From: SAR92 clade bacterium
Lineage (GTDB): Bacteria > Pseudomonadota > Gammaproteobacteria > Pseudomonadales > Porticoccaceae
Direction of reading: 5' to 3'
Assembly: GCA_014381985.1 (NCBI GenBank)
Contig: JACNKP010000052.1
Coordinates: 1-64,000 of the forward strand
DNA length: 64,000 nt
The translations under genes and the position numbers were made by a program. The notes under the pieces are model-generated. The model was not told the origin of the DNA, did no database searches, and saw nothing but the letters and a program-made list of their open reading frames with translations. Shown here in pieces: positions 5,985-64,000 of the stretch. Position 1 is the first letter of the stretch. Every line of letters begins with the position of its first letter.

Positions 5985-7208
5985 GTGATAATCGGGATTC
6001 CTTCGGAAATCAAAACCGGTGAGAAGCGCGTCGCCATGTCCCCTGCCAATGTCCAGTCATTAACGGACAAAAGTGTAAAGGTGCTTGTTCAAAAAAATGC
6101 TGGTAGCGCGGCTGGCTATCCAGATGCAGAATATAACGCTGCTGGAGCAACGACTATAGCTGACCGAGCAGAGATATTTGCCACCGCAGATATCATTTTA
6201 CAAGTCCAAAGTTTTGGCTCAAATACTGAAAACAGTGACTCAGACCTAGCGTTGTTGCGTCGTGGTCAGTTGGTGATCGGAATGATGGATCCATTAGCTT
6301 CACCACAGGCTGCCAAGGAGGTCGCTGCAACAGGGGCTAGCGCCATCGCTCTTGAGTTGGTGCCACGTATTAGCAGAGCACAAAGTATGGACGTGCTCTC
6401 GTCTATGGCGACCTTAGCCGGTTATAAATCGGTATTGATTGGAGCCTCGGCTTCTCCACGCATTTTTCCTATGCTGATGACCGCAGCAGGCACTCTTCAG
6501 CCCGCTCGAGTACTCATTATGGGGGTGGGTGTTGCCGGTCTGCAGGCCTGTGCTACGGCTAAGCGGCTAGGAGCTGTTGTTGAGGCCTACGATGTTCGTC
6601 CGGCCGCTAGAGAACAGATTATTTCGGTGGGGGCAAAGCCTGTCGAGTTGGACCTCGATACTGGCGAAACAGAAGGCGCCGGCGGCTACGCTAAAGAGCA
6701 GGGGGAAGATTTTCTTCGTCGGCAGCGCGAATTGATGACTGAAGTGGTTGCCCAGCAGGACATTATTATCACGACGGCAGCCATACCCGGGGCAAAGTCG
6801 CCGATTCTAGTGACAGAAGAGATGGTTATAGCGATGAAGCCAGGTGCTGTGATAGTTGATCTCGCTGCAGAACGCGGTGGAAACTGTGACCTTACTGAGC
6901 AAGGAAAAACTATTGTTGCCCACGATGTAATTATTGTAGGCCCCGAGAACGTTCCTTCAGACTTGGCTTATCATGCCAGTCAGATGTACGGTAAAAATAT
7001 GCAGACTCTTCTCGAACTCATATTGGATGAAAATGGTAGTCTCAATCTGGATCTTAATGATGAAATTGTTGCGGGCACGCTTGTAGCCCATGATGGCGAA
7101 GTTCCTCATGCTCATATGAGGAAGTTACTGGGCCTAACTGAAATAAAGGTTCCTACGGAATCGGAGCAACAACCTACTACCCCCGCTGACGAAAAACAGG
7201 AGAAATAA
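5985..7208 (+). CDS. pntA1: NAD(P) transhydrogenase subunit alpha part 1
   Basis: This is the NAD(H)-binding domain I of the proton-translocating transhydrogenase, which drives hydride transfer from NADH to NADP+ using the proton gradient. The 407-residue soluble protein starts MIIGIPSEIKTGEKRVAMSP, typical of the alanine dehydrogenase/PNT family. A Rossmann motif GVGVAGLQA lies near residue 185, and the RQREL mobile-loop region follows. The GTG start is chosen because AAGGAG lies 6 bases upstream. The alpha chain is split, as in Rhodospirillum, with the membrane part encoded by the next gene three bases downstream. The C-terminal 20 residues are Glu/Pro/Thr-rich linker. Confidence 0.95.
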   Translation: MIIGIPSEIKTGEKRVAMSPANVQSLTDKSVKVLVQKNAGSAAGYPDAEYNAAGATTIADRAEIFATADIILQVQSFGSNTENSDSDLALLRRGQLVIGMMDPLASPQAAKEVAATGASAIALELVPRISRAQSMDVLSSMATLAGYKSVLIGASASPRIFPMLMTAAGTLQPARVLIMGVGVAGLQACATAKRLGAVVEAYDVRPAAREQIISVGAKPVELDLDTGETEGAGGYAKEQGEDFLRRQRELMTEVVAQQDIIITTAAIPGAKSPILVTEEMVIAMKPGAVIVDLAAERGGNCDLTEQGKTIVAHDVIIVGPENVPSDLAYHASQMYGKNMQTLLELILDENGSLNLDLNDEIVAGTLVAHDGEVPHAHMRKLLGLTEIKVPTESEQQPTTPADEKQEK

Positions 7209-7211
7209 TCA

Positions 7212-7493
7212 ATGGAAACCTTAATTTTACTTCTAGCGTTGTTCGTCCTCGCTTTATTCCTCGGGGTTGAGCTAATTACTAAAGTTCCTCCAACCTTACA
7301 CACACCATTAATGTCTGGAACCAATGCAGTATCAGGAATTACCTTGGTCGGGGCTTTATTGGCCGCAGGGACAGGCAGCTCTCCTATGCTGGTTAATTGG
7401 CTTGGCTTTATAGCTGTGACTTTGGCGACTATCAATGTGGTCGGCGGTTATCTGGTGACCAATCGTATGCTTGCCATGTTTAAGAGGAAATAG
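7212..7493 (+). CDS. pntA2: NAD(P) transhydrogenase subunit alpha part 2
   Basis: This 93-residue membrane protein supplies the first helices of the proton-conducting domain II. About three hydrophobic segments are visible (residues 4-20, 36-53 and 59-82), with the conserved stretch HTPLMSGTNAVSGI between the first two. It sits three bases after pntA1 and directly abuts pntB, so the three genes form one operon. The split-subunit arrangement is usual in alphaproteobacteria and many marine gammaproteobacteria. Confidence 0.94.
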   Translation: METLILLLALFVLALFLGVELITKVPPTLHTPLMSGTNAVSGITLVGALLAAGTGSSPMLVNWLGFIAVTLATINVVGGYLVTNRMLAMFKRK

Positions 7494-8942
7494 ATGATGA
7501 GTGGAAGTTTAATTAACCTTATTTATCTGATTGCCGGCATATTATTTATTCTTGGTATCAAAGGACTCACCAAACCAAAAACCGCTGTTCGGGGCAACTT
7601 TCTCTCCGCGCTGGGTATGTTAGTTGCCGTAGTAATAACGCTGTTCACTATTAATGATGTGGATTTTACTTATGTGATAGCGGGTGTTGCCGTCGGTGGC
7701 ATTGTCGGCGCGGTGATGGCTCTGCGGATCCAAATGACGTCAATGCCTCAAATGGTGGCTTTGTTAAATGGATTTGGCGGTGGTGCTTCGCTCTCTATTG
7801 CCCTGGCTGAATATGTTACGCGTACAGGTATAAATCCTACTTCGATCTCTGATTTTTTCCAGCCGACGGTTGTTGCCGCTAGTGCATTTGGCGAGGGAGC
7901 AGAGGCCACTATTGCCTTAGTGTCGATTAGCCTTACCGTCCTTATAGGTGCGGTTACCCTCACTGGTAGTTTGATCGCCTTTAGCAAACTGCAGGAATTA
8001 ATGAAGAAAAGTTATGGACTGCCTGGCGGCCCATTTGGCAATGGAATTTTGTTATTGGGCGCTTTGGCTGCAGTTGCGTTTCTCGTGATGAACCCAGGCA
8101 ACACGATGGCTATGGTAGCCATCCTAGGGCTTGCTCTTTTACTTGGGTTGTTCTTGGTAATGCCTATTGGTGGTGCCGACATGCCAGTAGTGATTGCGCT
8201 GCTAAATTCTTATTCGGGAATCGCTGCAGCGTTGGCAGGCTTTATTTTAGGTAACACTGTATTGATTATTGCGGGTTCACTTGTGGGAACCTCCGGGCTT
8301 ATCCTTACAAGAATTATGTGTGTTGCCATGAACCGCTCTCTGGCTAATGTTTTGTTTGGAAAGATGGCCGCTGGTGGAGAAACCATAGATGCTGACGAGA
8401 TCTATGATGGCAAGGTGACCAGTGCGCAACCTGATGAAGTTGCTATGCTTTTAGAGACTGCTCAGAGAGTCGTTATTGTGCCGGGTTATGGTATGGCAAT
8501 GGCGCAGGCTCAACATGCCGTTCGAGAGCTTGCCGACGCGATGGAATCTAAAGGCGTCGAAGTTGAATATGGGATACACCCAGTGGCGGGGCGCATGCCC
8601 GGCCACATGAATGTGCTGCTTGCTGAGGCAGAGGTGCCTTACGATAAATTAGTTGAAATGGAGAGAATCAATCCCACCTTTGAAGATACTGATGTGGTGA
8701 TTGTTATTGGCGCGAATGACGTGACCAACCCTATGGCTCGTGATGTTGAAGGAAGTCCAATCTACGGCATGCCTATTCTGAATGTTGATAAGGCTAAAAC
8801 TGTAGTGGTGATTAAAAGATCATTAAGTCCGGGTTTTGCTGGATTGCCTAATCCGTTGTTTGCGATGGATCACACTTTGATGGTTTATGGCGACGGTAAG
8901 AAGGCTGTCATAGAAATGACAACAGCGCTGAACCAACTTTAG
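7494..8942 (+). CDS. pntB: NAD(P) transhydrogenase subunit beta
   Basis: PntB contributes most of the membrane proton channel and the NADP(H)-binding domain III. The 482-residue protein has about nine hydrophobic helices up to residue 280. The NADP-binding fold follows, with VPGYGMAMAQAQ and the VIGANDVTNP motif. GIHPVAGRMPGHMNVLLAEA is the typical domain III signature. The start abuts the pntA2 stop (TAGATGATG), and either of two adjacent ATG codons could be used. A strong terminator follows within 20 bases. The enzyme provides NADPH, which would be useful for the many reductive and monooxygenase steps coded further right, although no direct link is shown. Confidence 0.96.
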   Translation: MMSGSLINLIYLIAGILFILGIKGLTKPKTAVRGNFLSALGMLVAVVITLFTINDVDFTYVIAGVAVGGIVGAVMALRIQMTSMPQMVALLNGFGGGASLSIALAEYVTRTGINPTSISDFFQPTVVAASAFGEGAEATIALVSISLTVLIGAVTLTGSLIAFSKLQELMKKSYGLPGGPFGNGILLLGALAAVAFLVMNPGNTMAMVAILGLALLLGLFLVMPIGGADMPVVIALLNSYSGIAAALAGFILGNTVLIIAGSLVGTSGLILTRIMCVAMNRSLANVLFGKMAAGGETIDADEIYDGKVTSAQPDEVAMLLETAQRVVIVPGYGMAMAQAQHAVRELADAMESKGVEVEYGIHPVAGRMPGHMNVLLAEAEVPYDKLVEMERINPTFEDTDVVIVIGANDVTNPMARDVEGSPIYGMPILNVDKAKTVVVIKRSLSPGFAGLPNPLFAMDHTLMVYGDGKKAVIEMTTALNQL

Positions 8943-54758: not shown

Positions 54759-56495
54759 ATGACAATGGAGAATTCTGCAGTGGATCATCAGGGTGCTAAT
54801 TGGGATCATTCAGTAGATGTTTTGGTGGTTGGGTCCGGTAACGGTGGTTTGACTGCTGCAATTGCTAATCATGAGATGGGTAGCCAAGGTATTTTGGTTA
54901 TTGAAAAAGCTGACAAAATCGGTGGCACTAGCGCCACTTCCGGGGGAGGTATTTGGATTCCCTGTAACAGGTACTCCTTGGAAGCGGGGGCTGAAGATAG
55001 TCTCGACGAGGCGCGCGAATATCTCAAGCACACTCTCGAGGGAGAAGACATTCCTTCAGAGCTGGTAGAGACCTACTTAGAAAACGGCCCGAAAATGGTC
55101 GACTTTTTGCACAAATGCTCCCATGTGCGTTATGAGACTTTAGGTCACTATCCCGATTATTACTCAAGTCTGCCTGGTGCTAAGCCCGGCCATAGATCAT
55201 TAGAGCCCTCACCCATTAATGCCTCGACACTTGGCCCCGACTACAAAAGAATGACATACAGCCATCACATGATGAGATTGTTTGGTGTTATTCACTTCAC
55301 CCAAGTAGAAGCCCAAGTGTTAATGCTAAAACTACCGGGTTGGGGAAAACTCACCATGAGCATGGTGATGAATTACTTGCTGGATATTCCTTGGCGGCTG
55401 CGTACCAGTATCTCAAGACGCCTAGCCTGCGGTAGTGCAGGTGTAGCACGACTCTACCTTTCGGTGAAAGAGCGCAATATTCCGGTGTGGTTTGACAGTC
55501 CAATGGTTGATTTGATTCAAGAGGATGGTCGTGTGGTGGGGGCAATTGTCCAGCGCGATGGCAAGACTCTTAGAGTACAGGCTCGCAAAGGCGTTGTACT
55601 TGCTGCTGGTGGTTTTGAACGCAACCAAGAACTGAGAGAAAAGTACCTGCCGAGCCCAACTAACGCAGATTGGAGCGCAGGTGCCTATACCAATACTGGC
55701 GACCCACTGACTGCGGGACTTAAATTAGGTGCCGCAACACGACTTATGAACGACGCCTGGTGGACAACAACCCTTTGTGTCCCCGATGAGCCTATGCCGC
55801 GACTGAGTATTATGGAAAAATCTTTTCCGGGATCTTGCGTTGTGAATACCAAGGGTGTTCGTTTTGCCAATGAGTCGCAAAACTACATGGCTTTTCAAAA
55901 GCGACTCTTTGAAGCCCACAGCGACGAGAACCCCTGCGCGCCGGCATATCATATATTTGATGCCAGATTTCGGCGAGACTACATTGTGGGACCTCTAATG
56001 ACCGCCTCCATGAAACCTGACTGGACCATTCCGAAAAAATGGTACGACCAAGGATTTGTCGGTAAGGCTAATTCTATTGGCGAACTGGCAAACCAAATGG
56101 GTATCGATCCAACCGGTCTTGAAGATACCGTCAAAAAGATGAACCACTACGCCGAAACAGGTATAGATGAAGACTTTCAACGTGGCGATGCAGAATACGA
56201 CCGCTACTACGCTGACCCAGAGATTAAACCAAACCCTTGTTTAGCGCCAATCAGCGAAGGGCCCTACTATGCAATGCGCATTGAGGCCGGCGACTTTGGC
56301 ACGCTAGGTGGTTTAGCCACAGACGTTAACGCACAGGTCAAGTATGAGAAAGGGGGCTTAATTGAGGGTCTTTATGCTGTGGGCAACTGTTCGGCGGCTA
56401 TACTTTCTACCTACCCAGGACCAGGCGCTACACTGGGGCCTGCAATGACCATGGCGTACCAGTCAGCTAAACACATTAACAACTACCAAGATTAA
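54759..56495 (+). CDS. kstD: 3-ketosteroid delta-1-dehydrogenase
   Basis: KstD introduces the 1,2 double bond in the A ring of 3-ketosteroids, a step needed for aromatisation and B-ring opening. The 578-residue FAD protein has the dinucleotide motif VDVLVVGSGNGGLTAAI, then KIGGTSATSGGGIWIP. The family-specific EGPYYAMRIEAGDFGTLGGL contains the catalytic Tyr-Gly neighbourhood, and the C-terminus has GLYAVGNCSAAILSTYPGPGA followed by TLGPAMTMAY. Length is slightly above the usual 510-570. Its own promoter carries an inverted repeat. It is first in a module with a SnoaL-fold gene 11 bases behind. Two Met codons allow a start two residues later. Confidence 0.88.
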   Translation: MTMENSAVDHQGANWDHSVDVLVVGSGNGGLTAAIANHEMGSQGILVIEKADKIGGTSATSGGGIWIPCNRYSLEAGAEDSLDEAREYLKHTLEGEDIPSELVETYLENGPKMVDFLHKCSHVRYETLGHYPDYYSSLPGAKPGHRSLEPSPINASTLGPDYKRMTYSHHMMRLFGVIHFTQVEAQVLMLKLPGWGKLTMSMVMNYLLDIPWRLRTSISRRLACGSAGVARLYLSVKERNIPVWFDSPMVDLIQEDGRVVGAIVQRDGKTLRVQARKGVVLAAGGFERNQELREKYLPSPTNADWSAGAYTNTGDPLTAGLKLGAATRLMNDAWWTTTLCVPDEPMPRLSIMEKSFPGSCVVNTKGVRFANESQNYMAFQKRLFEAHSDENPCAPAYHIFDARFRRDYIVGPLMTASMKPDWTIPKKWYDQGFVGKANSIGELANQMGIDPTGLEDTVKKMNHYAETGIDEDFQRGDAEYDRYYADPEIKPNPCLAPISEGPYYAMRIEAGDFGTLGGLATDVNAQVKYEKGGLIEGLYAVGNCSAAILSTYPGPGATLGPAMTMAYQSAKHINNYQD

Positions 56496-56506
56496 GGGAA
56501 ATAAGT

Positions 56507-56965
56507 ATGCTGGATCTTGAAGCCATTGAACTGATAAAACAACTGAAAGCACGTTACTTTCGATTTTTAGACACTGCAAACTATGAAGGGCTAGAAACCT
56601 GTTTTACTGCAGATGCTGCGGCTTATTTTAAGGGTGGCAATTACGAATTTACCCTCAATGGCTGGACTGAACTAGAAACCTTTTATCGTCGCTCGATTAC
56701 TGAGAAAAAGTTTGGCGTGCACAATGGCCATCATCCAGAAATTACCGTTACAAGTGACTCGGCCACTGGTATTTGGTACCTCACTGACACCTTTATCAAC
56801 CTCAAAGACAATACTACCTTGCGTGGCACTGCGCTTTACACCGATGACTACACTCGTGTCGACGGCGAATGGAAGATACAGCGTACAGCTTACGACCGTC
56901 TTTTCGAAGAAACAGAACCCAGAGGCGAACACCTGCAGGTGACGGTTAATCCTATCAGTAGATAA
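56507..56965 (+). CDS. SnoaL-like NTF2-fold protein, first copy
   Basis: This 152-residue protein has the SnoaL_4/NTF2-like pattern: LIKQLKARYFRFLDTANYEGLETCFTADAAAYF at the N-terminus, HNGHHPEITVTSDSATGIWYL in the middle and the final strand VDGEWKIQRTAYDRL. This fold includes ketosteroid isomerase, bile-acid 7-alpha-dehydratase (BaiE) and polyketide cyclases. It follows kstD by 11 bases and so probably handles a steroid-like intermediate as an isomerase, hydratase or dehydratase. The specific reaction cannot be read. AAGGGAAA precedes the ATG. Confidence 0.8.
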   Translation: MLDLEAIELIKQLKARYFRFLDTANYEGLETCFTADAAAYFKGGNYEFTLNGWTELETFYRRSITEKKFGVHNGHHPEITVTSDSATGIWYLTDTFINLKDNTTLRGTALYTDDYTRVDGEWKIQRTAYDRLFEETEPRGEHLQVTVNPISR

Positions 56966-57145
56966 GGGTTTTTTTTCACCTGTTAATGGGTGTGGGAGCA
57001 AAAAAGTCAGAGCATTTTATTTAAGTAACAGCTTTTAGGCGTGAGGTTAGGCTCGCATAGATAATTTCAATGTGTTGCTTCAATCTCCCGCGGTACTGAC
57101 TTTGTGAAATTGAAAAGTCTATTTAATTGGCTTGATAAAATTGTT

Positions 57146-57169
57146 TAACTACAATGTTTTTTGTTACTT
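57146..57169. promoter_or_regulatory. Degenerate relative of the AAACATT/AATGTTT operator
   Basis: The right arm AATGTTTT is intact (57162-57169), while the left side keeps only AAAA plus scattered matches at the expected position. It lies about 53 bases before the start of the second KstD-like gene. It may be a weak half-site or chance in AT-rich sequence. Confidence 0.25.
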
Positions 57170-57221
57170 TAATTCAACAAACTCACAGTAATCGGTTACT
57201 AACTCTGACAAAAAGGTACCA

Positions 57222-58718
57222 ATGCCAATGCCAACTAACAAAGTATCGCCAATTAGTCCCATCAAAGCGTCCAGCGTTAACCACTGGGACTATGAGACTG
57301 ACGTTGCTGTTATTGGCTGTGGTGGTGCAGGCGCCTGTGCCGCCATTAGTGCGCATGATGCAGGGTCCAGAGTGCTGATTTTTGAGTTAGCATCTGGCAT
57401 TGGCGGTTCAACAACTTTGTCTTCTGCTGAGGTTTATTTAGGCGGAGGTACAAGAGTACAGAAGGCAACAGGTCATAGAGACACTAAGCGCGCCATGACC
57501 GATTTTCTAACTGCAGCGGCTGGGCCTCAGGCTGATAAAGCGAAAATAGTGGCTTACGTAGCGGGTAGCACAGATCATTTTGATTGGTTGGTTGAGCAAG
57601 GCGTGGTGTTTAAGGATTCTGAATATCCACATCGTGCCATTATGGCTCTGACCGACGATTGCTTACTGTACACCGGCGGCGAGAATGCTCACCCCTACAA
57701 CAAACTTGCTCCGCCAGCGCCCAGAGGACATAACCTCAAGGTAGTAGGGGATAATGGCGGACCGCTGTTAATGAAAACTCTTGGCGCCAAAATTGATGAG
57801 AAATCTATTCCTGTTGAACTTAATAGTCGTGCTTTAGCACTCATTGTTGACGACTCTGATGACCAGCAGTCGGTTATTGGTGTGCAAGTGCGTATCGACA
57901 TGCAAGAGAGATACGTTAAAGCTCGTTCTGGAGTGATTTTAGCTTCTGGAGGCTTTGTGATGAATGATCAAATGGTCAAACAATATGCACCTGAATTAAC
58001 CAGATGTACGGTACCCATTGGCAACCCAGGTGACACCGGAAGTGGCATTTTAATGGGCATGGGAGTTGGTGGCGCGGCCATTAATATGCATGAGGGATTT
58101 GTTAGTTTGCCCTTTTATCCGCCGGCGTCGCTTACTTATGGCATCTTTATTAATAGTCAGGGCCAGCGATTTGTTAACGAAGATAGCTACCACGGACGTG
58201 TTGGAGCTTTTATTTTACGCGAGACTGGCGGTCCTGTGTATTTGGTGCTCGCAGTTGAGGACTATGGTAAATACGAGACAGAGTCGTACCTAAATGCTGA
58301 CGTCGCAGCCACAGCTGAGTCTATAGTTGAGTTGGAATCTGACCTAAATCTCCCCCCTGGGGAGTTGCAAGCCACCATGAGTGACTACAATAAACATGCG
58401 AAAGCAGGAAACGACGAGCTATTTCATAAAGACCCCGTGTGGCTAAAACCTCTAGAACCACCTTTTGTGGCACTAGACGTTACCCCAGGGCGGGGCGCGT
58501 TTTATCCTTATTTCACTCTGGGTGGCTTAGATACCCTGCCAACCGGAGAGGTGCTTAAAGCCAGCGGTGATGTGATTACAGGTCTTTACGCCGTTGGCCG
58601 AACGGCCTGCGGTATACCAAGGCGCGGAGAGGGTTATGCGTCGGGCATGTCAGTTGGCGATGCAACATTTACTGGGCGTCAGGCCGGTATGGCAGCGAGT
58701 ACAAGAACCACGACATAG
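57222..58718 (+). CDS. KstD-like FAD-dependent oxidoreductase, second copy
   Basis: This 498-residue flavoprotein of the succinate dehydrogenase/KstD superfamily has DVAVIGCGGAGACAAISAHDAG, SGIGGSTTLSSAEVYLGGG and the C-terminal GLYAVGRTACGIPRRGEGYASGMSVGDATFTGR. It differs strongly from the first KstD: the EGPYYAM-like block is replaced by KPLEPPFVALDVTPGRGAFYPYFTLGG. Family members include KstD3-type, fumarate-reductase-like and delta-4-dehydrogenases, so the reaction is open. It has its own promoter region after a 256-base gap and is followed 10 bases later by a second SnoaL gene. AAGGT precedes the ATG. Confidence 0.8.
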   Translation: MPMPTNKVSPISPIKASSVNHWDYETDVAVIGCGGAGACAAISAHDAGSRVLIFELASGIGGSTTLSSAEVYLGGGTRVQKATGHRDTKRAMTDFLTAAAGPQADKAKIVAYVAGSTDHFDWLVEQGVVFKDSEYPHRAIMALTDDCLLYTGGENAHPYNKLAPPAPRGHNLKVVGDNGGPLLMKTLGAKIDEKSIPVELNSRALALIVDDSDDQQSVIGVQVRIDMQERYVKARSGVILASGGFVMNDQMVKQYAPELTRCTVPIGNPGDTGSGILMGMGVGGAAINMHEGFVSLPFYPPASLTYGIFINSQGQRFVNEDSYHGRVGAFILRETGGPVYLVLAVEDYGKYETESYLNADVAATAESIVELESDLNLPPGELQATMSDYNKHAKAGNDELFHKDPVWLKPLEPPFVALDVTPGRGAFYPYFTLGGLDTLPTGEVLKASGDVITGLYAVGRTACGIPRRGEGYASGMSVGDATFTGRQAGMAASTRTTT

Positions 58719-58728
58719 GGAAACACTA

Positions 58729-59352
58729 ATGGATAAAGATTTGACCTCCAGAATAGACCGCCTGGAGTCCTTAGACGAAATACGACAGCTTGCAGCAAAG
58801 TATTCACTGTCATTGGACATGCGTGACTTAGATGCCCACGTGAACCTCTTTGCTGAAGATATTAGGGTCAGTCGGGAGAGGGTGGGGCGGTCCTATTTGA
58901 AAGGCTGGCTAGATGACACTCTACGATTACAGTTTACCGGCACCTCTCACCATATTGGTAACCACGTTATTGAGTTTAAAGATCCAGACCACGCCATTGG
59001 CGTGGTTTATTCCAAAAACGAACATGAAACTAACGGCGAATGGGTGATCATGCAGATGATCTACTGGGACGACTATGAACGCATCGATGGACGTTGGTAT
59101 TTTCGCCGTCGATTACCCTGTTACTGGTACGCAACAGATCTCAACAAACCACCGATTGGCGACAATAAAATGCGTTGGCCAGACCGAGAACCCTATGCAG
59201 GGGCCTATCATGATCTATGGCCGAGCTGGCAACGATTTTGGGATAAACCACCTAACAGTGAAGAGCCTGAGGTGGCAGTTCCAGCGCCATTAAATGAGTT
59301 TTTAACCACCATGCGTGGGACGACAGATGTCCCCAAAATAAAAATTAGATAA
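58729..59352 (+). CDS. SnoaL-like NTF2-fold protein, second copy
   Basis: This 207-residue protein has IDRLESLDEIRQLAAKYSLSLDMRDLDAHVNLFAEDI, the SnoaL_4 helical opening. The body is a cone of strands with TSHHIGNHVIEFKDPDHAIGVV and WVIMQMIYWDDYERIDGRWYFRRR. It has a C-terminal extension of about 50 residues (WPSWQRFWDKPPNSEEPE) not present in the first copy. The start at 58729 is favoured by GGGAA upstream. It repeats the flavoprotein-plus-SnoaL arrangement seen at 54759-56965. The reaction (isomerisation or hydration) is inferred from fold only. Confidence 0.8.
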   Translation: MDKDLTSRIDRLESLDEIRQLAAKYSLSLDMRDLDAHVNLFAEDIRVSRERVGRSYLKGWLDDTLRLQFTGTSHHIGNHVIEFKDPDHAIGVVYSKNEHETNGEWVIMQMIYWDDYERIDGRWYFRRRLPCYWYATDLNKPPIGDNKMRWPDREPYAGAYHDLWPSWQRFWDKPPNSEEPEVAVPAPLNEFLTTMRGTTDVPKIKIR

Positions 59353-59362
59353 TAACTAGCGA

Positions 59363-60439
59363 GTGAGTACTTTGACTAATTCTACAACCCTCTTCACCCC
59401 TACAAAACTTGGGCGCATAGCCTTGGCTAACCGCATTGTTATGGCGCCAATGACCAGAAGTCGAGCCGAGACTGACGACAGAGTCTCTCAATTGCATGTT
59501 GACTACTATAGCCAGAGAGCGTCGGCAGGTTTAATTATTACTGAGGGCACTCACCCAAGTGTCAATGCCAAGGGTTATTGCCGCACACCTGGAATCTACA
59601 ATCAGGCACAAATCGATGCCTGGCGTCTTGTGACAGACAAGGTTCACGCCAATGGTGGCAAAATAGTCTGCCAAATTATGCATTGTGGTCGTGTTGCTGG
59701 CGTCAGCAACAAAGCTATAGGAGCCGAAACCTTGGCGCCCTCGGCTATTCACTGTAATGAAAAAATATTTACCGAAGAGGGTATGGTAGACATGCCCCCA
59801 CCAAGAGCGCTACGCTTGGACGAGATGCCGGGGATTATTGAAGAGCACCGGCAGGCCACAGAAAATGCCTTTATTGCAGGATTCGATGGAGTTGAGCTGC
59901 ACTGCACGTCTGGCTATCTGATGGCTCAATTTTTGTCGACTGGCACTAATCATAGACAGGACGAATACGGAGGCAGTTTGCAAAATCGACTGAGGCTGGT
60001 ATTAGAGGTTTTGCAAGCCATGGCTAGTGTTGATGGGGCTGATCGAGTAGGCATGCGAATCTGCCCCGGTAATCCTTTTAATGATTTATATGATGACAAC
60101 CCCTCAGAGACATTTATTGCCTTGTTAAAACAGGTGAACGCTCTAAGCCTGGCTTATTTGCATGTGATTCGCATGAAGGCCACCGGTATTGACAATGTAG
60201 CCCTTGCCAAAGCTCATTTTACGGGCCCAATTGTGGTCAATGATAGCTATAAACTAGAAGAAGCTCAGCAAGTCGTAACGACTAACGGCGCAACAGCGGT
60301 ATCTTTTGGTCGCTGGTTTGTGGCAAATCCCGATTTGGTCGAGCGACTGCGCAGTGGCGCAGAATTAAACAGAATGGATGGCAGGACACTTTACAGTCCA
60401 GGTCCAGAAGGCTATGTAGATTACCAGATGTTAAGTTAA
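59363..60439 (+). CDS. Old Yellow Enzyme family reductase with altered active site
   Basis: This 358-residue FMN protein has the OYE TIM barrel: ANRIVMAPMTRSRA, IMHCGRVAG, GFDGVELHCTSGYLMAQFLSTGTN, DEYGGSLQNRL and the C-terminal AVSFGRWFVANPDL. The catalytic pair His-Asn (or His-His) of the family reads H180-x-x-S183 here, with Tyr185 kept, so the second hydrogen-bond donor is changed. OYEs reduce activated alkenes; a delta-1 or delta-4 3-ketosteroid or a dienone could be the substrate by context. The start is GTG with a weak ribosome-binding site. Confidence 0.87.
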   Translation: MSTLTNSTTLFTPTKLGRIALANRIVMAPMTRSRAETDDRVSQLHVDYYSQRASAGLIITEGTHPSVNAKGYCRTPGIYNQAQIDAWRLVTDKVHANGGKIVCQIMHCGRVAGVSNKAIGAETLAPSAIHCNEKIFTEEGMVDMPPPRALRLDEMPGIIEEHRQATENAFIAGFDGVELHCTSGYLMAQFLSTGTNHRQDEYGGSLQNRLRLVLEVLQAMASVDGADRVGMRICPGNPFNDLYDDNPSETFIALLKQVNALSLAYLHVIRMKATGIDNVALAKAHFTGPIVVNDSYKLEEAQQVVTTNGATAVSFGRWFVANPDLVERLRSGAELNRMDGRTLYSPGPEGYVDYQMLS

Positions 60440-60455
60440 CCATGAGAGTTAAGTC

Positions 60456-62024
60456 ATGAATATGGATTTTGACAAACAGCTAGGTTTCTGGAATTTTGCT
60501 CAGCAGGCGCCAGAAAAAATTGCATTGATAGACCCTCTTGGCAGGGAGTGGAGTCGGGGCGAGTTACTTCATCGGTGTAACCAAATTGTTCATGGCTTGC
60601 GTGCCATGGGTCTTGAACCAGGTGACTCTATTGCGGCTCTGTTACCTAACTGTGCAGAGTACATTGCTCTTAATTTAGCGGTCACCCAGGCTGGATTTTA
60701 CTTGGTTCCTCTCAATTGGCATCTTGCTGAGCCTGAAGTGGCTTATATATTAGAAGACAGCAACGCTAAGGCTTTTTTCTGTGCCGAGTCTGTTGCGGAT
60801 GTCGCCATAGGCGCTATTAAAACTGTTAAGTTTCCTGTGCAAAATGTGATCGCACTGGGGGATGTCGGCGGCTACAAAACATTTGAAACCCTCATTGCAG
60901 GGCAGTCGGGAGCTACGCCCATTGATCGACGTGCTGGCATGGTGATGTTTTATACTTCTGGTACCACTGGAAAGCCAAAAGGCGTGCGCAGAGCCATGAT
61001 GCAGGTCGACCCAGACATGGCCGCCACCATGATGACCATGTTGCTGATGTTATTTGGTATAGAGCCAGAAGGGGACAACGTACATTTTTGCGGATCGCCT
61101 CTTTATCACACCGCGGTAATGAACTGGTCATCCAGTTCATTACATTACGGGCATACTGTTGTGTTACATGAAAACTGGGATGCTGAAAAGATGTTGCAGG
61201 CGGTGGATCATTACCGTATTACTACCGCCCATGTGGTGCCAACCCAGATGGTGAGGTTACATAAATTACCAGCAGAAATTCGGGCAGCTTATAATGTTTC
61301 CAGTATGCGCCATATGTTGCATACCGCGGCGCCCTGCCCGCCCGATGTAAAGTTTGACATTATTGATTGGTGGGGACCCTGCGTTTATGAGTATTACGCA
61401 TCAACTGAAGGTGGTGGAACGCTGGTGAATTCGGAAGACTGGTTAAAATATCCAGGCACTGTGGGCCGACCTTGGCCGACAGCAGACATTAAAATATTTG
61501 ACGATCAAGGCCATGAAAAGCCGACTGGAGAACAAGGCACTATTTATATGTTGATGAGTGAGCTAAGTCGGTTTGAATACAATGGCGACAAAGAAAAGAC
61601 ATTGAAGGATCGCTTTGGAGATTATTTTACGGCGGGTGATATTGGTTACCTAAATAATGACGGGTTTCTGTTTCTGAGCGATCGAAAAATTGACATGATC
61701 ATTAGTGGAGGGGTCAATATTTACCCTGCTGAAATTGAGAATGTGTTGATAACACATCCTTCAGTGGCCGATTGCTCCGTATTTGGAGTTCCCAACGATG
61801 ATTGGGGTGAGGAGGTAAAGGCTGCTGTGCAGTTGACACCCACGGTTCAGCAATCTGCTCAATTGCATGACGAAATTTTGGCCTATTGCGCTGAGCGCTT
61901 GGCAAAGATGAAGTTACCCAAGAGTATTGACTATATGGAGGTCTTACCCAGAGACCCCAATGGCAAACTTTATAAGCGAAAGTTACGCGACCCCTACTGG
62001 GCCGGGCGAGACAGACAGGTATAG
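60456..62024 (+). CDS. AMP-dependent acyl-CoA ligase, second copy
   Basis: This 522-residue ANL-superfamily enzyme has the P-loop YTSGTTGKPKGVRR, YEYYASTEGGG in place of the usual YGxTE, and SDRKIDMIISGGVNIYPAEIE. The C-terminal catalytic Lys lies in DPNGKLYKRKLRDPYW. It is distinct from the ligase that heads the hsa operon. The STEGGG form and the length recall steroid side-chain ligases of the FadD17/FadD19 type, but this is an impression, not a computed match. The stop abuts the GMC gene's ATG, so the two are co-translated. Confidence 0.85.
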   Translation: MNMDFDKQLGFWNFAQQAPEKIALIDPLGREWSRGELLHRCNQIVHGLRAMGLEPGDSIAALLPNCAEYIALNLAVTQAGFYLVPLNWHLAEPEVAYILEDSNAKAFFCAESVADVAIGAIKTVKFPVQNVIALGDVGGYKTFETLIAGQSGATPIDRRAGMVMFYTSGTTGKPKGVRRAMMQVDPDMAATMMTMLLMLFGIEPEGDNVHFCGSPLYHTAVMNWSSSSLHYGHTVVLHENWDAEKMLQAVDHYRITTAHVVPTQMVRLHKLPAEIRAAYNVSSMRHMLHTAAPCPPDVKFDIIDWWGPCVYEYYASTEGGGTLVNSEDWLKYPGTVGRPWPTADIKIFDDQGHEKPTGEQGTIYMLMSELSRFEYNGDKEKTLKDRFGDYFTAGDIGYLNNDGFLFLSDRKIDMIISGGVNIYPAEIENVLITHPSVADCSVFGVPNDDWGEEVKAAVQLTPTVQQSAQLHDEILAYCAERLAKMKLPKSIDYMEVLPRDPNGKLYKRKLRDPYWAGRDRQV

Positions 62025-63635
62025 ATGGCACAGGATAGCTTTGATTATATTATTGTAGGCGCGGGTTCGGCGGGTTGCGTGTTGGCCAACCGATTATCTG
62101 CCGACAAAAAGTGTTCGGTGCTATTAATTGAAGCTGGGGGGGCAGACAGTCACCCCCTAGTAAAACTGCCCATTGGCTGGACACAAATTTCCTATCACGA
62201 CAACTACAACTGGGGCTACCGTATCGCACCCTCAGAGATGACAGCACAGCGAGCTATGGTTTGGCCGCGGGCCAAAATGATGGGTGGCTGCAGTTCTACC
62301 AATGGCATGATTTATATTCGAGGACAAAGTCTAGACTACGATCATTGGGCTCAGTTAGGTAATAATGGTTGGGGTTGGGATCAGGTCTTACCCTATTTTA
62401 AGCGCTCTGAGGATTACTCAGGCACCGCCGCACAAGCTGATGTGTATCATGGCGTGGGAGGTGCATTGCACGTCTGTACCGTTAAACCTACGGCAATCTG
62501 CGATATGTATTTAAAAGCCTGCGCAGATCAGGGCATAGCCACGGTAGACGATTTAAATCGTGGTAATCAAAAAGGCGCTGCTTACTTCGATATTACGGTT
62601 AAAAAAGGGCGCCGTCACAATACCGTAAGTGCTTTTTTAAAACCGGTTAGGTCGCGTAAAAACCTTACAATCATGAAACATAGCCTAGTTAAACGCGTGT
62701 TATTTAAGGGTAAGGCCGCGGTGGGCGTTGAGGTTGTATGTAAGGGCAAGGTGTCTAATATTTTGGTTCGTCGTGAGGTTATTATTTCTGCTGGAACTAT
62801 TAATTCTCCCCAGTTGCTGCAGTTGTCTGGTATTGGCAATAAGAACCTACTAGACCTCCATGGCATAAATACAGTGGTTGACCTGCCCGGGGTGGGTGAA
62901 AATCTGCAGGATCACCTAGGATCCGTTGTTGCCAACCATATTAGGGCACCCTTGGGGTTGAATGCAGAACTCAAGCCCCATCGTTTAGCCTATAACCTTT
63001 ATCTATATCTTACCAAAGGGGAGGGTATTTTAAATTTTCCGGCGGCAGAGGTAGGGGGTTTCTTTTGTTCAGATCCAAGCCTGGACCGCCCCGATTTACA
63101 GATGCATTTTACTCGAGTTAGTGGTGATCGAGATATAGACAATAACTCTACCCTTGATGACTTGCCAGGGGTTACCAGCATTGCCTATCTGACAAGGCCT
63201 GAAAGTCGCGGAAGTGTGAAAATAACAAGTAATGACAGTGCTGAGCCACCGCTTATTGATGCTAATTATTTGGCCACTGAAAATGATCGTATAGCACTGA
63301 TTGCTGGGGTTAAAAGGCTGCGAGATATATTCGCGAGTGCGTCATTGGCTACCGTTATAGGCCAAGAATTGCGACCAGGTGTCGCGGTGGAAAGCGATGA
63401 AGATATTTTGGCTTATATTCAACAGCATGGCACCACAGCTTTTCACCCTGTGGGCACTTGCAAAATGGGCAATGATGATCTGGCCGTAGTTGATGACAGA
63501 CTCCGCGTGCATGGAGTGTCAAATCTTAGGGTGGTGGATGCATCTATAATGCCAACACTTATTTCCGGCAATACCAATGCAGCGACTATTATGATTGCAG
63601 AAAAGGGCGCAGACCTAATTTTGGGAGTAAAATAG
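62025..63635 (+). CDS. GMC family oxidoreductase
   Basis: This 536-residue FAD-dependent alcohol oxidase/dehydrogenase has the N-terminal FDYIIVGAGSAGCVLANRLS, the signature GGCSSTNGMIYIRG and the second PROSITE-like motif GTINSPQLLQLSGIG. The catalytic H474 is in TAFHPVGTCKMG with N518 in SGNTNAATIMIAEKGADL. The His/Asn pair is that of choline-dehydrogenase-type members. The cholesterol oxidase of class I is a distant GMC relative, so a hydroxysteroid or an alcohol of a terpenoid are both possible substrates. Its ATG directly follows the ligase stop. Confidence 0.88.
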   Translation: MAQDSFDYIIVGAGSAGCVLANRLSADKKCSVLLIEAGGADSHPLVKLPIGWTQISYHDNYNWGYRIAPSEMTAQRAMVWPRAKMMGGCSSTNGMIYIRGQSLDYDHWAQLGNNGWGWDQVLPYFKRSEDYSGTAAQADVYHGVGGALHVCTVKPTAICDMYLKACADQGIATVDDLNRGNQKGAAYFDITVKKGRRHNTVSAFLKPVRSRKNLTIMKHSLVKRVLFKGKAAVGVEVVCKGKVSNILVRREVIISAGTINSPQLLQLSGIGNKNLLDLHGINTVVDLPGVGENLQDHLGSVVANHIRAPLGLNAELKPHRLAYNLYLYLTKGEGILNFPAAEVGGFFCSDPSLDRPDLQMHFTRVSGDRDIDNNSTLDDLPGVTSIAYLTRPESRGSVKITSNDSAEPPLIDANYLATENDRIALIAGVKRLRDIFASASLATVIGQELRPGVAVESDEDILAYIQQHGTTAFHPVGTCKMGNDDLAVVDDRLRVHGVSNLRVVDASIMPTLISGNTNAATIMIAEKGADLILGVK

Positions 63636-63676
63636 ATCTCTAATAAAAGGGTTTGGACCGGCATTTTTTGAGGTAT

Positions 63677-63706
63677 AATAAAACATTTGAATGCAAATGT
63701 TTTATT
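63677..63706. promoter_or_regulatory. Perfect 13-base inverted repeat, candidate operator over the amidohydrolase promoter
   Basis: AATAAAACATTTG (63677-63689) and CAAATGTTTTATT (63694-63706) are perfect arms with a four-base spacer. The core AAACATT-N8-AATGTTT is identical in spacing to the one before kstD. A TATAAT box at 63674-63679 overlaps its left edge and a TTGGAC lies at 63653-63658 with a 15-base spacing, so binding would block transcription. A weak terminator for the GMC gene is the alternative reading, but no T run follows. Confidence 0.72.
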
Positions 63707-63800
63707 GAATTAATAGTCGCTGTCACCACAGTTCGTGTGCAGTGGTAAACTAAATTGGGTTGGTATCTATAGGTGCCATCAACACAGGGAATTTAAAACC

Positions 63801-64000
63801 ATGGCTATGCCTGAGAATATTGGAATCATCGACTTAATGTTGGCGGTCCCTAATCAAGAAACCTCTGACTATTACGACTTCATAAAGCCATTATTAATGG
63901 ATGAAGAGAGTCGGCAGATGTTCAAGATGCCTGCTCAGTATATGTTCAAGGATATTCCTAATACGGGCCTGCAAGACGACTATCTGGCCTACACCATTGA
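63801..64000 (+). CDS. Amidohydrolase family protein, 3' truncated by window
   Basis: The frame starts MAMPENIGIIDLMLAVPNQE and runs open to the window edge, including QMFKMPAQYMFKDIPNTG. It resembles the N-terminal part of the amidohydrolase_2 (TIM-barrel metal-dependent hydrolase) proteins found in steroid-degrader gene sets. The metal site is outside the window, so the function is not shown. AGGGAA precedes the ATG. The promoter carries the shared inverted repeat, which ties it to the kstD module. Confidence 0.7.
   Translation, partial: MAMPENIGIIDLMLAVPNQETSDYYDFIKPLLMDEESRQMFKMPAQYMFKDIPNTGLQDDYLAYTI

Follow-up and report, generated by a model that had tools for sequence, protein, structure and literature searches.

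What is the role of two gene pairs, each joining a flavoprotein to a SnoaL-fold protein, at the 3′ end of a 64,000-nucleotide stretch of DNA (hereinafter the window) from a Porticoccaceae bacterium? Read from its letters alone, this region had been proposed to hold an undescribed redox module, in which two flavoproteins resembling the 3-ketosteroid Δ1-dehydrogenase KstD, each with a SnoaL protein akin to ketosteroid isomerase (KSI), are joined to an Old Yellow Enzyme (OYE), an acyl-CoA ligase, a GMC oxidase and an amidohydrolase (hereinafter the sequence-only reading). We find that the region forms the 3′ portion of a steroid-degradation cluster, probably of the 9,10-seco type, and that it quite probably serves dehydroxylation within a cluster for bile-salt degradation, in which the A ring would be oxidized, the first SnoaL protein (SnoaL1) would act on the 7α-hydroxyl, and the second (SnoaL2) together with the OYE on the 12β-hydroxyl. 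Thus, the locus is real and conserved, being for the most part a known system, with an operon of KstD and a BaiE-type gene as a variant of the known pathway.

The genome (2.5 Mb in 82 contigs, 98% complete) belongs to an organism that is probably marine, as judged from its group and relatives. The genes of the sequence-only reading, seven of them complete and the amidohydrolase gene cut by the window end, are present where it placed them, on the forward strand, with open frames and Pfam families in agreement. The contig runs on past the window to base 81,751 and thereby completes the amidohydrolase gene (contig 63801–64670). KstD (54759–56495) is followed after 11 bp by SnoaL1 (56507–56965); 256 bp further on begins flavoprotein 2 (57222–58718), which is followed after 10 bp by SnoaL2 (58729–59352, counted from the ATG at 58729; its frame had been listed from an upstream TTG). 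This bears out the claim that each SnoaL gene lies at most 12 bases behind its flavoprotein. The OYE gene (59363–60439) comes next.

SnoaL2 and its adjoining Old Yellow Enzyme

SnoaL2 is an ortholog of the gene that occupies the steC place in Comamonas testosteroni ATCC 11996 (72% identity over 204 residues), and it is adjoined by the OYE. The latter is of the short NemA/alkene-reductase type of the OYE family, is 48% identical to the OYE adjoining the C. testosteroni steC-place gene, and stands directly after SnoaL2 in 10 of the 10 loci holding SnoaL2 in our neighborhood scan (the best 80 of 435 candidates, comprising 74 loci, to which all scan counts apply, and whose genomes partly overlap with those of the family search discussed below). 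In ATCC 11996 two short-chain dehydrogenases/reductases (SDRs) are followed by the SnoaL2 homolog, an OYE, an hsaC-like gene and a CoA-transferase pair. This order agrees with the tags of SteA, SteB, ORF7 and ORF6, which run consecutively (PMC8399759), and with the membership of the steABCD genes in the steA–tesR cluster (PMC13101464), which places the SnoaL2 homolog at steC. ORF7 and ORF6 are homologs of hsh1 and sor1 and are needed for C12-hydroxylated steroids (PMC4810484), the two-step reductive dehydroxylation being described in PMC8399759. In a tree of 103 rows (100 of them different), SnoaL2, the steC-place gene and the other SteC/Hsh1-type rows, four in all, are joined with a support of 100/100. 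The solved relatives of SnoaL2 are weak, namely 3ef8 (E 3.7e-7) and LinA.

Hence, SnoaL2 is a SteC/Hsh1-type ortholog with predicted 12β-hydroxysteroid dehydratase activity, and the OYE its SteD/Sor1-like alkene reductase partner, together constituting the known pair for the C12 hydroxyl of cholate-type bile salts, rather than part of an undescribed module. As in the steABCD and hsh1–sor1 systems of C. testosteroni TA441, Pseudomonas stutzeri Chol1 and Sphingobium Chol11, the dehydratase and OYE genes are adjacent and in the same order, but here a Δ4-dehydrogenase-type gene precedes them, whereas in C. testosteroni it is the SDR pair. Matches to SnoaL2 are also found on plasmids (37 records, 24 of them at 60–80% identity). 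In Sphingobium herbicidovorans, an NTF2 protein, an alkene reductase, three SDRs, an FAD oxidoreductase and an NAD(P)/FAD oxidoreductase are encoded in a row, with an FAD oxidoreductase matching the long OYE (see below) on the opposite strand. This order agrees with that implied by the Chol11 numbering, wherein Nov2c12 is Hsh1, 13 Sor1, 15 SteA, 16 SteB, 17 the 5α-KSTD and 19 the 5β-KSTD (PMC8399759). Plasmid pVa1 of the fish-associated Vibrio alfacsensis (L083) codes for a SnoaL2 homolog (69%), an OYE (51%) and a KstD-type protein (44%), along with Rieske and β-oxidation genes, and possibly carries a plasmid-borne steroid-degradation cluster of its own.

SnoaL1 and the two flavoproteins

SnoaL1 matches the SnoaL_4 family in Pfam (6.8e-27), and its best solved relative by sequence is BaiE (2.6e-25). 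The homology extends to the active-site positions: Y30, D35, H83 and R146 of BaiE, which we take to be the residues that matter for function, are all kept in SnoaL1 as Y17, D22, H72 and R131. The structure of SnoaL1 was predicted (mean pLDDT 95) from 27 rows, namely an alignment (A3) of 28 rows chosen from 92 SnoaL1-type frames minus one (L093) that holds an X. With this model, Foldseek places four BaiE entries on top (E 3.3e-15 to 5.3e-15), followed by LinA (2.2e-9), and by Z the NTF2 folds are almost level, with BaiE at 18.1 to 20.2, 3rob at 19.6 and the KSI of C. testosteroni at 17.3. SnoaL1 is most likely a BaiE/Hsh2-type NTF2 hydroxysteroid dehydratase, rather than the KSI-like protein of the sequence-only reading, and its probable target is the C7 hydroxyl. 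Like the two 7α-hydroxysteroid dehydratases, BaiE from Clostridium and Hsh2 from Sphingobium Chol11, it has the NTF2 fold, and it keeps the active-site positions of BaiE, but it differs from them in adjoining KstD in related groups. Plasmid-borne NTF2 genes 42–45% identical to SnoaL1 are present in S. herbicidovorans MH and Novosphingobium aromaticivorans DSM 12444; the Δ4,6 variant is used by S. herbicidovorans MH and N. aromaticivorans F199 (PMC8399759). The kinetics of Hsh2 were determined with 7α-HADD (PMC12175502), which by its name, as we read it, is a 1,4-diene, i.e., a KstD-type product; an operon of KstD and a dehydratase is thus chemically sensible. Homologs of Hsh2 are reported from marine and aquaculture metagenomes (PMC12175502).

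Tandem SnoaL1-like genes, about 48–54% identical to SnoaL1, are found in C. testosteroni (L143:6675–10465) and Pseudomonas alkylphenolica (L139:8004–12294), flanking SRPBCC-like and SDR-like frames and near sulfotransferase-like and cysD/cysN-like ones (labels assigned by eye). Among the aligned rows, one copy of this type of tandem pair lacks the Arg at the position of BaiE R146.

The flavoprotein preceding SnoaL1 matches the solved 3-oxosteroid 1-dehydrogenase 7p18 (E 1.9e-152, residues 18–573 aligned, i.e., full-length). For flavoprotein 2, the best solved relative is the 3-ketosteroid Δ4-(5α)-dehydrogenase 4at0 (E 4.3e-104), of which Y319, Y466 and S468, presumably the catalytic residues, align with Y323, Y472 and S474 and are all kept. 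Its best NCBIfam model, NF005510, matched above the cut-off, describes an FAD-binding subfamily without a named function. Thus, of the two flavoproteins held to be KstD-like, the first is indeed so, while the second resembles a Δ4-(5α)-dehydrogenase of the TesI/Kst4D type, not KstD. The same two enzyme types are found together as TesH (KstD) and TesI (Δ4-5α-KSTD) in C. testosteroni, but there the genes are directly adjacent (PMC8399759), whereas here a dehydratase gene comes after each.

Conservation and surroundings of the pairs

Of 112 family genomes, the genome under study included, 10 have orthologs (at least 61% identity) of KstD, SnoaL1, flavoprotein 2 and SnoaL2, the 10 being the same for each of the four genes. 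This is more than chance, and the conserved co-occurrence of the two pairs, to which the sequence-only reading had pointed as a check, is observed directly. Below 61%, two more family genomes have a KstD-type protein (40–41%), one of them also a flavoprotein 2 homolog (42%). Weaker NTF2 homologs abound, some match at E up to 0.001 being present in 41 (SnoaL1) and 37 (SnoaL2) of the 112. In the neighborhood scan, a KstD match directly precedes SnoaL1, at a distance of 3 to 56 bp, in 35 of the 40 loci from Porticoccaceae and Halieaceae-type gammaproteobacteria (L092–L131), the exceptions being L096, L104 (where the contig ends 217 bp away), L115, L124 and L127, as against none of the 34 other loci (L132–L165, from Pseudomonas, Comamonas and others; L155 offers only 257 bp upstream). 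The closest relative among these best 80 of 435, a Porticoccaceae metagenome-assembled genome (L092), has a SnoaL1 99% identical to ours. SnoaL2 lies inside the fetched SnoaL1 flank in 9 of the 40 loci, several of these flanks being short; in all nine, flavoprotein 2 precedes it and the OYE follows. In the genus g8 the two pairs share one contig, 41–53 kb apart. Searches of whole genomes recovered SnoaL2 in 32 of 36 SnoaL1-bearing genomes of the Porticoccaceae/Halieaceae-type groups (covering 36 of the 40 loci) and in 19 of 19 from Pseudomonas, Comamonas, Halopseudomonas and Croceicoccus (drawn from 20 of the 34 other loci, without L145). One locus labeled Rhodospirillaceae (L093) has a cluster mostly 75–92% identical to the window; its label may be wrong.

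The neighbors that the sequence-only reading had joined to the pairs fare differently. The amidohydrolase (PF04909; from 63801 to the end of the window at 64000) is a conserved member, being present in all 11 clusters readable from the OYE to the amidohydrolase (the window, G026, L093, G066, G067, G036, G035, G056, L109, L111 and HTCC2080). It is 81–96% identical in the ten relatives, which puts it among the cluster's most conserved proteins, and has relatives on sphingomonad plasmids at 59–62% identity (12 of 15 records listed). A cholate-induced amidohydrolase of Caenibius tardaugens might cleave conjugates (PMC12882949). The acyl-CoA ligase (60456–62024, AMP-binding in Pfam) comes after the OYE in 3 of the 11 clusters, and the GMC oxidoreductase (62025–63635, recognized by Pfam) is at its place in 2; both are thus variable neighbors, and on this comparison they are not counted as members of a module. 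In the cluster comparisons, matches covering less than 40% of the query were dropped, and the listing for one of them also left out those below 80 bits.

The remaining steroid-degradation cluster (33561–54644), delineated by Pfam and NCBIfam matches, codes for an aldolase, an acetaldehyde dehydrogenase and a hydratase of the tesG/F/E type, an α/β hydrolase, HsaA- and HsaC-like proteins, a flavin reductase, a FadD3-type ligase (694.5 bits, above the NCBIfam cut-off), a CoA-transferase subunit (PF01144), an enoyl-CoA hydratase, acyl-CoA dehydrogenases, SDRs and thiolases. The frame beside the PF01144 subunit has no Pfam match at E up to 1e-10; its label, ipdB-like, reflects position alone. Gene order here is largely retained in six relatives, with the tesE/F/G-like genes not beside it in G066 and G067. 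Downstream of the pairs are found a MaoC protein, SDRs, a 3α-hydroxysteroid dehydrogenase (3α-HSD; 1fjh match 1.2e-48), a frame with GMC and aldehyde dehydrogenase domains, a DUF3604 protein, a long OYE (contig 72434–74638; best model BaiCD at 428.7 bits, cut-off 825), and AraC and TonB-receptor proteins. KshA_C is matched over the cut-off on two further contigs, C81 and C1, and in none of 14 control genomes; on C81, KshA is accompanied by a family III CoA-transferase, a nitronate monooxygenase-type protein and an enoyl-CoA hydratase. Taken with this set, the genes upstream and downstream of the pairs suggest that the genome likely holds a complete aerobic steroid pathway.

A sulfatase gene with the CSPTR signature (PF00884; contig C24 80432–81751, L178:8932–10251) runs off the contig end. 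Each of the six relatives read has such a sulfatase in its cluster stretch; in three, the gene stands between SnoaL1 and flavoprotein 2. The 74 scan loci show it in L098, L099 and L100 only; it is seen neither in the 20-kb HTCC2080 stretch nor in the fetched flanks of Halieaceae loci. Beside KshA on C81 are genes for a sulfotransferase and for a rubredoxin–rubredoxin reductase fusion (L187:5798–7030 and 7034–8704), the latter of which might be an electron donor for KshA in place of KshB. Another fusion, of GMC and aldehyde dehydrogenase domains in one 1057-residue protein (L003:7238–10411; a similar frame of 1039 residues is found in G026), is possibly an alcohol-to-acid enzyme for side chains.

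Proposed pathway and rival explanations

In the bile-salt pathway that we posit, the A ring would be oxidized by 3α-HSD, a Δ4-dehydrogenase and KstD, with flavoprotein 2 serving for the Δ4 step of 5α substrates and the downstream long OYE for that of 5β substrates. SnoaL1, made together with KstD, would eliminate the 7α-hydroxyl as water, leaving a 6-ene conjugated with the 3-keto-4-ene (or 1,4-diene). SnoaL2 would eliminate the 12β-hydroxyl once ring A is gone, whereupon the adjoining OYE would reduce the resulting double bond. The substrate, the carbon attacked by SnoaL1 and the order of the steps are what we infer from these relationships. A bile-acid-type substrate and the removal of ring hydroxyls, both raised by the sequence-only reading, are the best-founded interpretation.

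Several observations weigh against this assignment. SnoaL1 is only 39–45% identical to BaiE and the sphingomonad candidates that stand in for the characterized Hsh2 of Chol11. In the 103-row tree these stand-ins group as a clade of their own, and SnoaL1 does not form one exclusive clade with them, several branches being long. Closer relatives of SnoaL1 (48–54%) occur in Pseudomonas and Comamonas in a different context, although P. stutzeri Chol1 and C. testosteroni are tabulated as lacking Hsh2 (PMC8399759); hence, the function may have shifted. For SnoaL2, the steC-place gene of ATCC 11996 takes the place of the characterized SteC of TA441 in the comparison, the predicted structure is poor (mean pLDDT 52, from a 7-row alignment), and two SDRs of the same cluster that might correspond to the SteA/SteB pair (contig 65324–66136 and 66188–67012) are not beside it. 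The best NCBIfam models are matched below the cut-off by KstD (3-ketosteroid-Δ1-dehydrogenase, 543 bits against 789), HsaA (301.6) and HsaC (293.3, both against 450). Moreover, Halieaceae and Spongiibacteraceae isolated from sponges were able to grow on cholesterol (PMC5790920), which leaves room for substrates other than bile salts.

An alternative, which we hold to be unlikely, is that SnoaL1 is a dehydratase of the BaiE fold for a hydroxyl other than C7α or for a ring-opened intermediate, such that the KstD–SnoaL1 pair would serve the general degradation of the steroid nucleus and not bile salts in particular. Along with its position in the tree and the growth of related families on cholesterol, this explanation could draw on SnoaL1 standing at the end of an operon of acyl-CoA dehydrogenase, SDR and thiolase genes in the majority of loci from the related groups, and on the four of 36 SnoaL1-bearing genomes that have no SnoaL2 match (their completeness is not given). 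However, all four of the BaiE positions are kept, and the C12-type dehydratase accompanies SnoaL1 in the other 32. It is very improbable that the SnoaL proteins are ketosteroid isomerases shifting ring double bonds for KstD: KSI does have the same NTF2-like fold, and by Z it comes close behind BaiE, but it is absent from the seven solved sequence matches (E up to 0.1) of either protein, the Foldseek ranking of SnoaL1 is headed by BaiE, and SnoaL2 groups with the steC-place gene. We find hardly credible a chance gathering of steroid genes with no joint function. The wide separation of the pairs in g8 and the few flanks shared by SnoaL1 and SnoaL2 would fit it, but not the joint presence of all four orthologs in the same genomes nor the adjacency of KstD and SnoaL1.

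Similar enzyme types, a CoA ligase, an OYE and a SnoaL dehydratase, act on bile acids in the bai operon of gut Clostridium. The pathway there is reductive, whereas the context here is that of oxidative ring degradation, and the OYE adjoining SnoaL2 is short, the BaiCD-like long OYE lying elsewhere on the contig. On these two grounds, a bai-like reductive operon was dismissed.

Most of the supposedly undescribed module is accordingly the known steC/steD-type system, and novelty may attach at most to the KstD–dehydratase operon. Our literature search, in which coverage of subscription papers was thin, found no description of this operon; among the papers listed under loose terms, none dealt with the locus itself as far as title and opening of the abstract show, which is weak evidence of absence. 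Halieaceae and Spongiibacteraceae (PMC5790920), as well as OM60 and SAR86 (PMC4810484), already include known steroid degraders, and the consulted parts of these two papers and of PMC12175502 name no gene for C7-hydroxyl removal in these marine groups. Tentatively, and as a somewhat doubtful extension, we suggest that gammaproteobacteria of the Porticoccaceae, Halieaceae/Luminiphilus and their kin, probably marine, might carry a BaiE-type lineage of their own in the KstD operon, which would act on the KstD product and merge the Δ1,4 and Δ4,6 variants into a Δ1,4,6 route. In Porticoccaceae, this route might be directed at the sulfated bile alcohols of fish and sharks, an idea prompted by the sulfatase in or near the cluster, the alcohol-oxidizing enzymes and the 5α-type dehydrogenase. 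More generally, the locus suggests that gammaproteobacteria with small genomes, probably marine, are specifically equipped to deal with each of the two nuclear hydroxyls of cholate-type bile salts, with the KstD–dehydratase operon offering a testable case.

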